From Rufibacter roseus (GTDB lineage Bacteria > Bacteroidota > Bacteroidia > Cytophagales > Hymenobacteraceae), in the NCBI RefSeq assembly GCF_001647285.1, contig NZ_LRML01000002.1, forward strand, positions 1 to 64,000: DNA of 64,000 nucleotides. Direction: 5' to 3'. The position numbers were made by a program, and so were the translations under genes. Positions 31,385-45,590 of this stretch are shown here, one piece after another. The first letter of the stretch is position 1. Every line of letters starts with the position of its first letter. A model generated the notes under the pieces. The model did no database searches. It saw only the letters and a program-made list of their open reading frames with translations, and had not been told where the DNA came from.

Positions 31385-31777
31385 CTAAAGCTCTCTTCTG
31401 ATCTGCTCCGCTATCTGCTCCATTTCAGCTGACTCTAACTTTTGCTTGGGGTTGCTAAAGTTCATATCAGAGATTGAATTGATAGGCACCAAATGTATAT
31501 GAGCGTGTGGTACTTCAAGCCCCACAACCGCCACACCAACTCTCGCACAGGGTACTGCTTTTTCTATAGCTTTGGCTACTTTCTGAGAGAACTTATGCAA
31601 ATCCGCCAGCGTATCCGGTTCTAAGTCAAATATATAATCTACTGGTTCTTTAGGTATCACTAATGTGTGGCCCTTTACCAGAGGGATCACATCTAAAAAA
31701 GCGAGGAAACGGTCATCCTCTAAAACCTTATAGGCAGGTATTTCGCCTTTTACAATCTTTGAGAAGATAGTTTCCAT
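31385..31777 (-). CDS. HIT family nucleotide-binding protein
   Basis: A 130-residue histidine-triad protein (Hint/HinT branch), a hydrolase of nucleotide phosphoramidates and related conjugates. The N-terminus IFSKIVKGEIPAYKVLEDD is characteristic and the triad reads PHAHIHLVP at about 99-107. It begins 4 bp after greA and is co-transcribed with it, a common pairing in Bacteroidota. Confidence 0.94.
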   Translation of the reverse strand: METIFSKIVKGEIPAYKVLEDDRFLAFLDVIPLVKGHTLVIPKEPVDYIFDLEPDTLADLHKFSQKVAKAIEKAVPCARVGVAVVGLEVPHAHIHLVPINSISDMNFSNPKQKLESAEMEQIAEQIRREL

Positions 31778-36005: not shown

Positions 36006-38447
<2,442 letters not shown>

Positions 38448-39413
38448 ATGAAGGATGTAATTTTAGGAATTGACATTGGGGGCACCAATACCAAGTATGG
38501 TTTCCTGGACCGCGATGGAATAAGTTTAGCTCACGGAGAAATCTCCACCACCAGTGGAGATACCGTACATGATTTTTTGAGAGATTTCTATCAAGAGGTA
38601 CACGCTAAGTTTAGAAAAATTGAAGACGAGGCCCGCCTGATAGGGATTGGCGTTGGCGCCCCTAACGGCAACTTCTATACCGGCACCATTGAGAATGCCC
38701 CTAACCTTAAATGGCACGGCTCTGTTCCGCTGGCCGAACTGCTACAGACTTACTTCAAGGTGCCTGTGTATCTAACTAATGACGCGAACGCCGCTGCTAT
38801 TGGTGAAATGATTTACGGTGGTGCCAAAAACATGAAAAACTTTGTGGTGGTTACCTTGGGCACCGGGTTGGGGAGCGGTATTGTGGTGAATGGAGATTTG
38901 GTTTACGGTGATGACGGCAACGCCGGAGAGCTTGGACACACCCTGACTAACGTGAAGGGCACCGGACGTGTGTGTGGCTGCGGCCGCAGAGGTTGCTTAG
39001 AAACCTACGTGTCTGCCACCGGTATCAAAAGAACCATCTACAAACTGTTAGCCGACTCAATAGACTACAGCGAGCTGCGTGGGGTAAGCTTCAACGACCT
39101 GACCGCCGAAATGGTGACTCAAGCCGCCAAACGTGGTGACAAAATAGCTATTGACGCCTTTGAATACACCGGTAAAGTACTGGGCGTTAAACTAGCCGAC
39201 ACAGTGGCTCACCTAAGCCCAGAGGCTATTTTCTTGTTTGGCGGATTGGTGCGGGCCGAGGAGTTTTTGTTTGACCCTGTGCGTTACCACCTTGAAAAGA
39301 ACTTGCTCCCAATCTTCAAGGGCAAAGTGAAAGTTTTACCTTCTGGCTTAGGCCTGAACAACACTGCTGTTATGGGCGCTGCCGCTCTTGCCTGGAAAGA
39401 ACTGGAACGCTAA
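38448..39413 (+). CDS. ROK family glucokinase
   Basis: A 321-residue sugar kinase, most likely phosphorylating glucose to glucose-6-phosphate. The ATP-binding loop GIDIGGTNTKYGF is at about 5-17, catalytic Asp in LTNDANAAAIGE near 105, phosphate loop VTLGTGLGSGIVVN near 134, and the ROK zinc-binding block GRVCGCGRRGCLETYVS near 173-189. It has no helix-turn-helix, so it is an enzyme rather than a ROK repressor. Start is ATG at 38448; the frame is open from a TTG at 38418. It lies close to the maltose locus and would use the glucose released there. Confidence 0.9.
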   Translation: MKDVILGIDIGGTNTKYGFLDRDGISLAHGEISTTSGDTVHDFLRDFYQEVHAKFRKIEDEARLIGIGVGAPNGNFYTGTIENAPNLKWHGSVPLAELLQTYFKVPVYLTNDANAAAIGEMIYGGAKNMKNFVVVTLGTGLGSGIVVNGDLVYGDDGNAGELGHTLTNVKGTGRVCGCGRRGCLETYVSATGIKRTIYKLLADSIDYSELRGVSFNDLTAEMVTQAAKRGDKIAIDAFEYTGKVLGVKLADTVAHLSPEAIFLFGGLVRAEEFLFDPVRYHLEKNLLPIFKGKVKVLPSGLGLNNTAVMGAAALAWKELER

Positions 39414-39583: not shown

Positions 39584-40738
39584 TTATTTACCAAACAGCC
39601 AGCTGATTACTTGCCCAAACTCGCGTTGCCAGAACCACCCCTTGTGCTCTCCGTCTTGATGCACCCGGTAAGTCAGATTTATTGTTTTCACTCCGCGTTT
39701 TAGAAGCAGGTCACGCATTTTCTACATATCCGGCACCATCTGCTCTCCTTCTCTGGCACCGGCCATGAGGTACAGCTTTGTAGACGGAAGCAAATCACAT
39801 TGTTCTACATATTGATATAGTTCAGGTGACAACCAAAATGCCGGTGAAAAGACACCTACTCTCCCATAAACCTCAGGGTATTTCACAGCAGCATATAAAG
39901 AAATAAGGCCTCCCATAGAACTGCCAGCCACTCCTGTGGTAGTTTTCCCCGGCAGGGTACGGTAGTGACTGTCAATGTACGGCTTCAGTGTTTGCACCAG
40001 AAAGTCCACATACGCATCTCCTTTTCCGCCGCCGTATTGTTTGTTGTGCCAAGGAGTGTACTCATTTATACGCTCCTCGCCGCCGTTTTCAATGCCCACT
40101 ACCACTATTTCCAGCTTCTTTCTTCGGGCGAGCTGATCCAGTGTTTCATCTACCTCCCACTCGCCACTATAACTGTAAAAAGAATCAAACAGGTTTTGCC
40201 CGTCGTGCATGTACAGCACAGGGTATCTTTTCTTTGACAAATGGTAACCGGATGGCAGGTAAAGCCATATTCTTCTAGACTTGTTTAACTGGGGCATCCA
40301 AAACGTGTGGCTTAAGAACTGAACATTGGCGCTGGCCGTATGCGGTTTAGTGGATGCAGAGAAATTGTCTTGCCAGTTTTCAACTTCAATATAAAGGGAA
40401 TCAGCAGCAGTTGCGGTTGAGAAACCGCGGTTGCCACGGGCGGCTCCGTTAGCCAGTATTTCACCCTTAGCCCAGCTGCCGCGGGTAATTTTGAACTCAA
40501 GTACCTCGGTTAGCTCTGGCACTGTCAGGTAATACTGCTGATTAGCAGCCCTGACAAACATATGCGCCGAGCTTCTGTGGTTCCAGTTGTTAATGTTGCC
40601 CGCCAGGAATAGAGTGTCAGACGCCGGCGTGCCTATAGGTACTTTTTTCAATACCAGTGTTACCTGCCCTAAAGCTGTTTGCCATGCCAGAACCAGCAAA
40701 ACAACCATGCATACCACTCCGGCAGAAAATGATTTCAT
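39584..40738 (-). pseudogene. Putative esterase interrupted by an in-frame TAG
   Basis: An exported alpha/beta-hydrolase (esterase D/Fes-like) of the starch locus. The signal peptide is residues 1-24, followed by a CBM20/48-like beta domain (about 25-120, LFLAGNINNWN) and the hydrolase domain. The nucleophile is Ser274 in AGSSMGG. Codon 339 (39722-39724) is TAG, so the ORF proper is 338 residues. The same frame then stays open for 45 more codons to TAA at 39584-39586, and this tail reads RVHQDGEHKGWFWQRE, the family end with the predicted catalytic His (residue 365). The stop therefore removes the His. One base change from a Tyr codon would explain it. Options are a recent pseudogene, readthrough or a sequencing error. 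Confidence 0.8.
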
Positions 40739-40760
40739 ATTTTAGCAGCAAAAAATTAGG

Positions 40761-40802
40761 GAAATCGATTTCGTAATCAAAAAAAGTCGTATTTTCGACT
40801 TT
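40761..40802. promoter_or_regulatory. Two palindromes, probable repressor operators
   Basis: GAAATCGATTTC (40761-40772) is a perfect 12-bp palindrome. AAAGTCG (40783-40789) and CGACTTT (40796-40802) form a second inverted repeat with a 6-bp spacer. Both lie between divergent genes, and the second directly follows the predicted start point of the esterase promoter. The CG-centred form resembles LacI-family operators; no such regulator is in the window. Confidence 0.45.
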
Positions 40803-40809
40803 GATTTTA

Positions 40810-40840
40810 CAAAAATAACAATCTCCCGAACACCGTCAAC
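40810..40840 (-). promoter_or_regulatory. Promoter of the interrupted esterase gene
   Basis: On the minus strand GTTG (40837-40840), a 19-bp spacer and TATTTTTG (40810-40817) fit the Bacteroidota promoter with one mismatch. The expected start is about 40803, leaving a 65-nt leader that contains the palindromes. Confidence 0.6.
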
Positions 40841-40857
40841 CATAAGAGAGACAGGTA

Positions 40858-43560
40858 ATGAATAGAAGCTCGGTGTACTTTGCGCTTATCTGCTGGATGT
40901 TTTTCACTTGCTGTAAATCTTCCACTTCAAATAAAAATGAAGCTATGTACACTTCTGATGCTTTTCAACTTTTTCATAACCGTGTAGTGCAGGGCAATTT
41001 TGTAGCCGAGGCACTTTCACCTACCCACCTGCGCTCTTCTTACCAAAGCCCAGCTAATCAAACTTTTAGCCGACTTTTAGAGTACAAATTCAGCCTGAAC
41101 GGCAAAGACAATGAGTTGCCCATGGGTGTAAATCACCGCTTGGTGCTACAACCTGAACAAGGAAAGATAGAAACGCCTGTGGTAGTTTTTGGCAAAGCAA
41201 CCGGACAGAACATCACCAAGGCACCAGATGATTTTTTGGAGCCCAATGTAGAGGTTACCTTTCGGGTAGACCTCAGGCCCGTATTGCAAGCATTTGAGAA
41301 AGAAGGTTACTACACCGCTTTCAATGGGGAGAAACTTTACGAAACCGATTTCAAGGGTGTATTTATTGCCGGAGGTTCTGAGCCACTCACCTGGGATTTT
41401 GAGAACCTGCCCAACCGGCAACACCTACAGCTCACTGACTCTGACAAAGACGGTATTTACACCGTCACGCTCACTTTCAACGCCTACAACCCAGAGAATT
41501 TCACCGCTTCTGAATGGAAACTGGAACGTGATCTGAGCAAACTGCCGCAGTATAGCTCAGATCAGGTGCTGCTAGATGCTTTATATAATATGTCACTGGA
41601 GGAAATGCTGCTCGACATCAGGCCGGACAGCACCTTTATGGCCGGTGAAAAATGGGACGGCGTCTGGACCCGCGATATTTCCTATAGTATCCTGCTTTCC
41701 CTGGCAGCAATTGAGCCTCAGCTCTGCCTGAACAGTTTAAGGCGAAAAGTAAAAGACGGGAGAATTGTACAAGATACCGGTACTGGTGGCTCCTGGCCAA
41801 TCTCATCAGACCGTACTACCTGGGCACTGGCCGCCTGGGAAGTATACAAAGTTACCGGTGATAAGGAGTGGCTTCGGGAAGCGTACTCTATAATTAAAAA
41901 AACAGCTGAGGAAGATTTAGCCACTGTGGTAGACCACGGCACTGGTTTGTTTAGAGGAGAATCATCTTTTCTGGATTGGCGCAAGCAAACCTACCCTGCC
42001 TGGATGGAACCAGTGGATATCTACTTGTCGCTGAATTTGGGCACCAATGTCGTTCACTACCAGACGTACCAGATACTAGCGCAAATGGCAGAACTGCTGG
42101 AAGAGCCTGCAAATGTGTACCGTCAAACAGCAGAGCACATTAACAAGGGGATCAATCAGCTCCTGTGGGTGCCAGAGAAGAAGTATTACGGGCAGTTTTT
42201 ATACGGAAGGCAGAACCTTACCCTCTCCCCACGTTCTGAAGCGTTAGGTGAAGCTTTAGCTATTCTATTTAATGTGGCGAATAAGGAGCGAAAAGAGGAG
42301 GTGTTGGCAAACTCTCCGCAGACACCGTTTGGCACTCCTTCCATTTACCCGTACATCCCCGAGATTCCGCCCTACCACAACAACAGCATGTGGCCCTTTG
42401 TGCAGGCGTATTGGACCTGGGCCGCCGCTCAGGAAGGACATACCCAGGTAGTGAGCCAGAGCATGGCGGCCCTGTACAGAGCTGCTGCACTCTTTCTCAC
42501 AAACAAAGAGAATCTGGTAGCCGAAACCGGTGACTATAAAGGAACCGAGATAAACTCTGACCGCCAGCTCTGGAGCGTGGCAGGCAACTTAGCCATGGTG
42601 TACCGGGTGTTCTTCGGGATGCAGTATGAACAAAACAAGCTGGTTTTCAACCCAGTGGTGCCGGAGTCATACGCCGGTAACAAAAAACTTCAGAATTTCC
42701 CTTACCGGAATGCCACCCTTACATTGGAGCTTGAAGGCTACGGTACCAAGCTGGAAAAAATCTATTTAGACGGTAAATCACTGGCTAAAGCTGAAATTCC
42801 GGCTAACCTGACCGGACATCATACTCTCAAAATGGTACTGGCCAATGACAAAGGAGTTACCACTGCCCCTAATTTGGTACAGAACGCCTTCAGCCCTATT
42901 ACGCCTGTGGTTACTTACACCAACGGCACGCTCAATTGGTCGCCTGTGAAAGGAGCTGCTAGTTACAACGTGTATCGTAACGGAAAGGCAGTTTCTAAAG
43001 TGACAACTAACTCATTCAAAGTAGCTGTTCCAGCCAAAGGGACGGAGGAATACCAGATAAGCACCATCGGCTCAGAAAATTCAGAATCGTTCCTGAGTGA
43101 GCCTGTTTTAGTAACAGCTCCTACCTCAGTACAACTAATAGAATCAGAAGTTGCAGGTAACAGCAAAGCGCACAATGCCGCTGGCTTTACTGGCTCGGGT
43201 TATATCCAGATTGCGAAAGGCAGCCCTACTCCTATCTCTTGGAAAGTGTCAGCACCGCAAGATGGTCTGTATTCCGTTGACTTCCGGTACGCAAACGGCA
43301 ATGGCCCTATCAATACAGATAACAAGGCGGCTATCAGAACTCTTACCTTAGACAAACAACGGGTAGGTGCCGTGGTATTTCCGCAAAGAGGCTTTGAGGA
43401 ATGGTCTAACTGGGGCTATAGCAACCATTGGCAAGTATACCTGACGAAAGGGGAACATACGTTTTCGCTCAGTTTTGAACCATCAGACGAAAACATGAAC
43501 GGTGAAATAAACGAGGCTCTACTGGATCACTTAAGATTGATTTATATAAAAGAGAAATAG
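40858..43560 (+). CDS. Six-hairpin glycosidase lipoprotein with carbohydrate-binding ends
   Basis: A 900-residue predicted lipoprotein (Cys18/19 in FFTCCKSS). A beta-rich N-terminal part contains a CBM20-like stretch (about 120-210, VEVTFRVDLR...TWDFENLPNR). The catalytic part, about 235-640, is an (alpha/alpha)6 barrel of the trehalase/glycogen-debranching/MGH type (KWDGVWTRDISYSILLSLA near 262-280, WPISSDRTTWALAAW, SMWPFVQAYWTWAAAQ). A fibronectin-III-like segment (about 675-755) and a CBM35/CBM6-like end (about 760-895) follow. Substrate is inferred to be an alpha-glucan or oligosaccharide from the locus; the exact GH family cannot be set by eye. First gene of the plus-strand maltose cluster. 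Confidence 0.8.
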   Translation: MNRSSVYFALICWMFFTCCKSSTSNKNEAMYTSDAFQLFHNRVVQGNFVAEALSPTHLRSSYQSPANQTFSRLLEYKFSLNGKDNELPMGVNHRLVLQPEQGKIETPVVVFGKATGQNITKAPDDFLEPNVEVTFRVDLRPVLQAFEKEGYYTAFNGEKLYETDFKGVFIAGGSEPLTWDFENLPNRQHLQLTDSDKDGIYTVTLTFNAYNPENFTASEWKLERDLSKLPQYSSDQVLLDALYNMSLEEMLLDIRPDSTFMAGEKWDGVWTRDISYSILLSLAAIEPQLCLNSLRRKVKDGRIVQDTGTGGSWPISSDRTTWALAAWEVYKVTGDKEWLREAYSIIKKTAEEDLATVVDHGTGLFRGESSFLDWRKQTYPAWMEPVDIYLSLNLGTNVVHYQTYQILAQMAELLEEPANVYRQTAEHINKGINQLLWVPEKKYYGQFLYGRQNLTLSPRSEALGEALAILFNVANKERKEEVLANSPQTPFGTPSIYPYIPEIPPYHNNSMWPFVQAYWTWAAAQEGHTQVVSQSMAALYRAAALFLTNKENLVAETGDYKGTEINSDRQLWSVAGNLAMVYRVFFGMQYEQNKLVFNPVVPESYAGNKKLQNFPYRNATLTLELEGYGTKLEKIYLDGKSLAKAEIPANLTGHHTLKMVLANDKGVTTAPNLVQNAFSPITPVVTYTNGTLNWSPVKGAASYNVYRNGKAVSKVTTNSFKVAVPAKGTEEYQISTIGSENSESFLSEPVLVTAPTSVQLIESEVAGNSKAHNAAGFTGSGYIQIAKGSPTPISWKVSAPQDGLYSVDFRYANGNGPINTDNKAAIRTLTLDKQRVGAVVFPQRGFEEWSNWGYSNHWQVYLTKGEHTFSLSFEPSDENMNGEINEALLDHLRLIYIKEK

Positions 43561-43697: not shown

Positions 43698-45590
43698 ATG
43701 ATGAGACAACAGACAATAAACAAACTTTTCCTGTTTCTATGCTTTTGGGCGATTGCCTTTCAGGGGTCGGCGCAAAAGGTAAAAGATGCGGTAACCAGAG
43801 TAAACCCTACATTCTGGTGGGTGGGCATGAAAGACCAGAACCTGCAGTTGTTGGTGTATGGCCCTAACGCGGGAGCTTATTCTTACTCGGTAGATTACCC
43901 TGGCGTGTCCATGGTGAAAGAACACAAGGTAGAGAACCTTAATTATGCTTTTCTGGACCTGAGCATTGCCCCCGACACCAAACCCGGTTCCTTCACCATC
44001 AGGGGGAAAAATGGCCGAAAGAAGCTGGATTATAAATACGAACTGAAGGCGCGTACCCAGGAAACCAAAGCCCAAGGCGTAGATGCCTCAGACTTCATTT
44101 ATTTGGTACTGCCCGACCGTTTCGCCAATGCTGATCCGAAGAACGACAAGTTCAAAGACATGGCCGATCCAAATGCTGACCGTAGCAATCCGTTTTACCG
44201 GCACGGCGGAGATATTCAGGGCATTCAGAACCAACTAGATTACTTTCAGGAGTTAGGGGTAACGGCGCTTTGGCTCAACCCAGTCATTGAAAACAACCAG
44301 CCCCTCACCGACGAAGGCGGAGCCATGCGCAGCGCCTACCACGGCTATGCCTTCACTGATCATTACAACGTTGACCGTCGGTTAGGCGGAAACGAGGCTT
44401 ACAAGAAACTGATTGAGGCGGCTCACGCCCGAGGCTTGAAAATAGTGCAGGATGCCGTGTACAATCATGTGGGAATCAACCATTGGTTTATTAAAGACAT
44501 GCCTTCCAAAGATTGGGTGCACCAGTGGCCGTCCTACACCAACACCTCGCATAAGTTCCAGGCAATAATGGACCCGCATGCCGCACAGAAAGACATTTAT
44601 GTCATGATGAACGGCTGGTTCGTGCCCCACATGCCCGACCTGAACCATGACAATCCGTTTGTGGCAAAATTCCTGATTCAGCACGCCCTGTGGACGGTAG
44701 AGTACTTCGGCATTGACGCCTGGCGCATTGACACCTACATGTACAATGAACTGGAGTTCATCAACCGCTGCAACCAGGCGCTACTGAACGAATACCCTAA
44801 CATCCACATTTTCGGGGAATCATGGGTGAACAACGTTCCCTCGCAGGCCTATTTCGTGCGCAACAATCTGAATGTACCTTACAAGAGCAACCAGCCCGGC
44901 ACTTTGGATTTTGTGCTTTGGACGGCCATGAACGATGCCCTGAACCAGAAGTTTGGTTGGGATGAAGGCGTAAGCAAAGTGCATCAGGTGCTGGCTCAGG
45001 ATTTCGTGTATGAAGACCCCATGAAACTGGTGAACTTCCTGGACAACCACGACATGAACCGTTACTTCTCCGTCATCGGCGAAGACTTTGACAAGTATAA
45101 GATTGGCCTCACCTGGCTCCTGACCACCCGCGGGATTCCCTCCCTCTACTACGGCACTGAGATTCTCATGAAGAATTTCAAAGACCCGTCAGACGCCGAG
45201 GTGCGCAAAGATTTCCCGGGCGGCTTCCCGGGAGACAAGGATAATAAATTCACCGCCGCAGGTCGTACAGAGCGTGAAAACGAGGCCTTTGATTTTGTCA
45301 AGAAACTGGCGAACTACCGCAAGAACACGCCTGCGCTGCATTCAGGAAAACTAACGCAGTTTGTGCCGCAGGAAGGTATATACGTGTACTTCCGGCACGA
45401 CCAAACCAAGACCATTATGGTGGCCACCAACAGCAACGAGAAAGAAACAGACCTGAAAACGGAACGGTATGCGGAGCGTCTACAAGACTTCACCAAAGCA
45501 CGAAATGTCTTAACAGATCAAATCATTAACAGCCTAAACAGCATAAAAATACCGGCTAAAACTGCGCTGGTATTGGAGCTGCAGAAGTAA
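43698..45590 (+). CDS. GH13 neopullulanase / cyclomaltodextrinase-like enzyme (SusA-like)
   Basis: A 630-residue exported alpha-glucan hydrolase. Signal peptide about 1-24 (FQGSAQK), N-terminal cyclomaltodextrinase beta domain (about 30-115), catalytic (beta/alpha)8 barrel from about 130, and a C-terminal beta domain (about 545-630). Catalytic residues are visible as Asp in AWRIDTYMY, Glu in IFGESWV and Asp in FLDNHDMNR. This organisation matches periplasmic neopullulanases such as SusA, which cut pullulan and maltooligosaccharides to short sugars. Start is ATG at 43698 (a second ATG follows directly) behind AAAAGG. Palindrome copies lie on both sides. Confidence 0.9.
   Translation: MMRQQTINKLFLFLCFWAIAFQGSAQKVKDAVTRVNPTFWWVGMKDQNLQLLVYGPNAGAYSYSVDYPGVSMVKEHKVENLNYAFLDLSIAPDTKPGSFTIRGKNGRKKLDYKYELKARTQETKAQGVDASDFIYLVLPDRFANADPKNDKFKDMADPNADRSNPFYRHGGDIQGIQNQLDYFQELGVTALWLNPVIENNQPLTDEGGAMRSAYHGYAFTDHYNVDRRLGGNEAYKKLIEAAHARGLKIVQDAVYNHVGINHWFIKDMPSKDWVHQWPSYTNTSHKFQAIMDPHAAQKDIYVMMNGWFVPHMPDLNHDNPFVAKFLIQHALWTVEYFGIDAWRIDTYMYNELEFINRCNQALLNEYPNIHIFGESWVNNVPSQAYFVRNNLNVPYKSNQPGTLDFVLWTAMNDALNQKFGWDEGVSKVHQVLAQDFVYEDPMKLVNFLDNHDMNRYFSVIGEDFDKYKIGLTWLLTTRGIPSLYYGTEILMKNFKDPSDAEVRKDFPGGFPGDKDNKFTAAGRTERENEAFDFVKKLANYRKNTPALHSGKLTQFVPQEGIYVYFRHDQTKTIMVATNSNEKETDLKTERYAERLQDFTKARNVLTDQIINSLNSIKIPAKTALVLELQK

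Follow-up and report, generated by a model that had tools for sequence, protein, structure and literature searches.

The window analysed here, a stretch of 64,000 nucleotides from Rufibacter roseus (contig NZ_LRML01000002.1), contains on its reverse strand an esterase gene placed between a convergent ROK-family gene and a divergent gene encoding a glycoside-hydrolase-like protein (Table 1). Translation from 40738 down to 39584 yielded 338 codons, an in-frame TAG (39724..39722), 45 sense codons and a TAA (39586..39584), in agreement with an earlier, sequence-only reading, which had placed the TAG after codon 338 with the frame continuing for 45 codons, found DGEHKGWFW in the tail and numbered Ser274 and His365 as we do. 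The hydrophobic N-terminus resembles a signal peptide, as judged by eye, and in a Pfam search the tail displayed no family of its own. In the divergent intergenic stretch, TATTTTTG, located 72-79 bases 5' of the ATG, fits the Bacteroidetes -7 motif TAnnTTTG and is a putative promoter element.

Table 1. Position of the esterase gene, its parts and its neighbors in the window.
Feature	Positions	Strand	Evidence
Esterase gene, probably broken; 384 codons including the TAG (codon 339), then TAA	39584..40738	-	translation; genus orthologues
In-frame TAG, codon 339, within predicted helix 334-347	39722..39724	-	sense codon in 13/13 same-genus orthologues
Segment up to the stop (338 residues), with a signal-peptide-like N-terminus, a CBM48-like domain and most of the CE1 domain, including Ser274 and Glu330	39725..40738	-	PF00756; 7b5v profile alignment; model
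Tail after the stop, 45 codons: predicted strand 355-360, His365, predicted helix 367-382; Gly367 where relatives have Glu	39587..39721	-	alignments; model
ROK-family protein (sugar kinase type), convergent neighbor	38418..39413	+	Pfam search; genus comparison
Glycoside-hydrolase-like protein, divergent neighbor	40858..43560	+	Pfam search; genus comparison
Divergent intergenic stretch, 119 bases, with TATTTTTG	40739..40857	.	motif match

An open frame beyond a stop codon is not evidence of interruption by itself, since such openness is common among the ORFs of the window. In a set of 42 gene-like ORFs chosen by the analyst from 61, the esterase included, nine of the 41 others stay open for at least 35 codons past their own stop, five of which reach the next gene, and seven stay open for at least 45 codons, five of them through reaching the next gene. 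The esterase tail goes beyond chance because of its homology, as both the orthologues and the distinct relatives described below carry it. Another ORF of the window (31385-31777, reverse strand) is also terminated by TAG and followed by 78 open codons; it does not look interrupted, since its homologue in L203 of genome G005 has the same length of 130 residues. A codon-usage scan of 304 kb of the contig for other interrupted genes had too weak a bias to work with short tails, and its six candidates, with at least 211 codons on either side of the stop, are most likely neighboring genes in the same frame.

Catalytic residues and fold

The protein matches PF00756 over residues 150-307 (E 2e-34, 119.9 bits against a cut-off of 22), and its assignment to the esterase superfamily is firm. 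Alignment to 7b5v, the C-terminal part of DmCE1B, for which a triad Ser542-His638-Glu606 is given in the published account (PMC8040265), indicates a triad Ser274-Glu330-His365, with Glu330 and His365 paired with the corresponding Glu and His of that structure. The earlier proposals that His365 is the catalytic histidine cut off by the stop, and that Ser274, located upstream of it, is intact, are thus borne out, both by this alignment and by the conservation of Ser274, Glu330, His365 and Trp370, each found in 102 of 102 distinct relatives. As encoded, the product lacks a complete triad, keeping Ser274 and Glu330 while His365 lies past the stop. Judged from its sequence, the ancestral gene is a member of the CE1/PF00756 family and the present product an incomplete member.

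In an AlphaFold2 model of the read-through protein, built from a 30-sequence alignment (mean pLDDT 88.9, pTM 0.71), codon 339 falls inside a helix, and the elements that follow in the model and the alignment, and would hence be lost, are the last beta-strand of the hydrolase fold, His365 and the last helix. A CBM-like domain had also been proposed; it is upheld by fold, as Foldseek ranks 1-12 of the 50 listed are CBM48-CE1 chains aligned over 370-397 columns, but not by a Pfam search for CBM48 at E 0.001, which gave no match. The CBM48-CE1 esterases, such as 7b5v, wtsFae1A (6rzo) and Bacint_01039 (6ne9), share an N-terminal CBM48-like beta-sandwich and a CE1 alpha/beta-hydrolase domain, an architecture that the model of the window protein displays by fold, whereas the window gene ends ahead of the histidine. 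Identity to these chains is 17-20%, with a whole-chain TM of about 0.5 and an rmsd of 9-11.5, and therefore the placement of the domains either differs from theirs or is ill predicted. The enterobactin/enterochelin esterase Fes (3c8d, 3c87, 2b20 and 3mga) is a two-domain esterase too, and its chains, found from Foldseek rank 16 onwards, align over 378-393 columns with a TM (query) of 0.50-0.54, on par with the CBM48-CE1 chains. Nevertheless, even the best of their E-values is weaker (8e-16, compared with 1.8e-17), their identity is 15-17%, and the NCBIfam enterochelin esterase model, although matching residues 143-382, scores 51.9, far under its cut-off of 222. The CBM48-CE1 assignment is accordingly given as the best match, and the predicted placement of the domains is uncertain.

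Conservation of the C-terminal tail

Sixteen genomes of the genus, that of the window included, were searched at an orthologue threshold of E 1e-60, and 14 of them, again counting that of the window, gave an orthologue. All 13 others are free of internal stops and align up to residue 382-384 of 384, with a tail identity to the window gene of 47-67%. The best 80 of at least 587 relatives detected in a wider scan of contigs all extend at least 43 residues beyond position 338, and among these 80 the nearest named loci are those of Rufibacter sediminis (L046), R. hautae (L048) and Sabulibacter ruber (L047), intact orthologues that are 62-66% identical to the window gene and differ from it in having Ala at position 339 and a full tail. 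An alignment was made of the window protein with 102 distinct relatives, consisting of 26 sequences (13 from the genus, 13 from elsewhere) and 76 of those 80 named loci; a paralogue from the same genome (L002), three weaker matches (L029-L031) and the duplicates L046, L047, L048 and L053 were left out. The tail with its histidine is present in all 102. A natural shorter form, in which relatives stop at the same codon and lack the tail, was the observation that had been named as fatal to the idea of an interruption; a stop at codon 339 was found in none of the 13 genus orthologues and in none of the 102 relatives, the short form being likewise absent from all 102, and TAG at this codon is confined to the window gene, one of the 14 orthologues of the genus.

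The same reading had expected relatives to carry Tyr at codon 339, and this expectation failed. The residue at this site varies among the 102 relatives (Q 22, A 16, N 12, L 10, R 9, K 8, E 5, D 4, Y 4, with others besides), and the 13 genus orthologues have Ala in ten cases, Lys in two and Thr in one, so that Tyr, with 0 of 13 in the genus and 4 of 102 overall, is not the residue to be expected. Two sets of apparent exceptions among the relatives were rejected: a TAA in L023 falls in the signal region ahead of the likely start, and L062, L083, L099 and L102, which a rough text pattern had marked as devoid of the histidine, have it in the alignment.

Age of the stop codon

The tail of the window gene has diverged about as much as that of its intact counterparts. 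Its tail/body divergence ratio is 1.19, against 0.88-1.24 in the 13 orthologues, and its tail/body pN ratio is 1.18, against 0.95-1.42; since both lie within the range of the orthologues and the median pN of the tail (0.27) is well below a pS that is close to saturation (0.85), the tail was under selection until recently. Residue 367, a single site chosen after looking, is Gly in the window gene and Glu in 101 of the 102 relatives. Considering all sites at which at most one relative differs, the window gene is changed at one of four in the tail and at none of 38 in the body, and 2 of the 102 relatives also deviate at tail sites of this kind; at the strictly invariant sites no change was found (0 of 2 in the tail, 0 of 25 in the body). 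Among columns invariant in the genus, three of 16 are changed in the tail and five of 121 in the body, a difference that is only suggestive (Fisher p = 0.051), and for orthologue L015 the corresponding figures are three of 19 and 11 of 132. Taken as they stand in the alignment, these changes give a slight hint that drift of the tail may have begun, which would be more in line with a genuine stop than with either efficient readthrough or an error of sequencing. Relaxation of the body was not seen when tip lengths in the esterase tree were compared with those in a tree of the ROK neighbor: the esterase tip of the window genome (0.39) is the second longest, after L015 (0.44), but nothing peculiar to the esterase follows from this, because the ROK tip of the same genome is also long, the longest of 16.

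Origin and consequences of the stop codon

A pseudogene has been defined as an otherwise intact gene with a premature stop (PMC11078800), and the window gene is like ordinary bacterial nonsense pseudogenes in this respect, with no essential difference: its stop is absent from the relatives, and a needed part of the enzyme lies behind it. We consider it likely that a recent nonsense mutation turned this CBM48-like/CE1-type esterase gene into a pseudogene, the ancestral enzyme having probably been secreted. A point mutation would have created the TAG at codon 339, and translation, if it still occurs, would halt there and release a 338-residue protein devoid of the last beta-strand, His365 and the last helix, which should be inactive and is probably unstable. 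Recent inactivation, programmed readthrough and a base-calling error had been offered side by side by the sequence-only reading; the first is the best supported, the second found no support, and the third is less likely than the first.

A base-calling or assembly error, or a variant acquired in culture by the sequenced clone, would mean that the natural gene is intact. This explanation is unlikely, though it draws on real features of the data: the stop is alone in an otherwise open frame, the divergence of the tail is inside the range of intact orthologues, and the assembly is a draft of 39 contigs. On the other hand, Gly at the near-invariant position 367 suggests that constraint on the tail is already lowered, and consensus substitution errors are rare in isolate assemblies of high coverage. 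The coarse census of open frames in the window gives no strong argument in either direction. We infer that the stop is a real mutation rather than an assembly error.

Even with a real stop the gene might not be dead, if the truncated body were still produced, exported and used as a CBM48-like protein that binds sugars without catalytic activity, or if leaky reading of the TAG supplied a little full-length enzyme, but this we regard as improbable. Programmed or efficient readthrough, giving some full-length enzyme, is more improbable still. The frame beyond the TAG is open and the decay of the tail is mild, and bacterial pseudogenes can reportedly be expressed at a low level; however, our checks of tRNA genes, RF1, PylS and TAG usage revealed no recoding signal. 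RF1 (prfA) is present, above its cut-off, and none of the 38 tRNA genes, all of which were read by ARAGORN, has a CTA anticodon, in a search that scored 150 of its 256 first-look candidates and might miss an unusual tRNA-Pyl. PylS gave only a 21-bit match, below the cut-off, in a 647-residue frame, as it likewise stayed below the cut-off in 12 of 14 control genomes. Moreover, of 154 long open segments counted over 304 kb of the contig, 50 end in TAG, which is thus an ordinary stop here, the stop in the esterase is shared by none of the 102 relatives, and residue 367 is altered. A literature search for bacterial pseudogenes with readthrough gave no match.

The order of codons at the site, ATG TAG AAA ATG, also invites the idea that translation stops and restarts at the in-frame ATG two codons past the TAG, yielding a fragment of 44 residues which then associates with the truncated body. 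We give this very little credence: a Met occupies that site in all 13 genus orthologues and hence did not arise together with the stop, the arrangement is unseen in relatives, and the two products would end up in different compartments, since the fragment would lack a signal peptide such as the one with which the body, by eye, seems to begin. Equally hard to credit is that the short protein is a natural form, either an esterase or a protein that only binds, and has taken on a new role. Even though none of the 38 near-invariant family sites in the 338-residue part is changed, no relative among the 102 has the short form, and in the model the cut falls mid-helix within the hydrolase fold.

The preferred reading, a recent nonsense pseudogene, bears mainly on annotation, where the entry ought to read nonsense-disrupted esterase rather than 338-residue enzyme; a young pseudogene is an ordinary kind of find, and the wider import is little. 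The case looks like the beginning of the loss of a gene for which two other genomes of the genus gave no orthologue.

Genomic context and dispensability

The genome of the window strain (G000; 5.1 Mb in 39 contigs, 99.99% complete) has no second close copy of the esterase, as its next match is just 32% identical over residues 158-304. Of the 15 other genomes of the genus, two, G001 and G005, gave no orthologue at E 1e-60, and consequently the gene is, as far as its distribution among these genomes tells, dispensable. Both are draft assemblies, one in about 170 contigs and the other in about 20. In the ROK tree G001 adjoins the pair formed by G000 and G012 with a weak support of 0.50, the pair itself having 0.97. 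In G005, both the ROK gene and a homologue of the ORF at 43698-45590 are present, with no esterase match between them (tblastn, E 1e-8); the stretch between the two (L203, 6600-9550) holds other ORFs of 150-292 residues. The esterase is convergent with the ROK gene, in the same neighborhood, in G012 (about 1.1 kb away), G008 (about 0.8 kb) and G013 (about 6 kb). Altogether the esterase looks like an old gene, presumably kept by vertical descent and lost now and then.

A TAA inside the glycosidase homologue of G014 was rejected as an interruption, being the end of its match. Homologues of the divergent hydrolase gene occur, at E 1e-60, in 7 of the 15 other genomes of the genus, in six of them away from the esterase, and in G013 the esterase and the glycoside-hydrolase-like gene also form a divergent pair.
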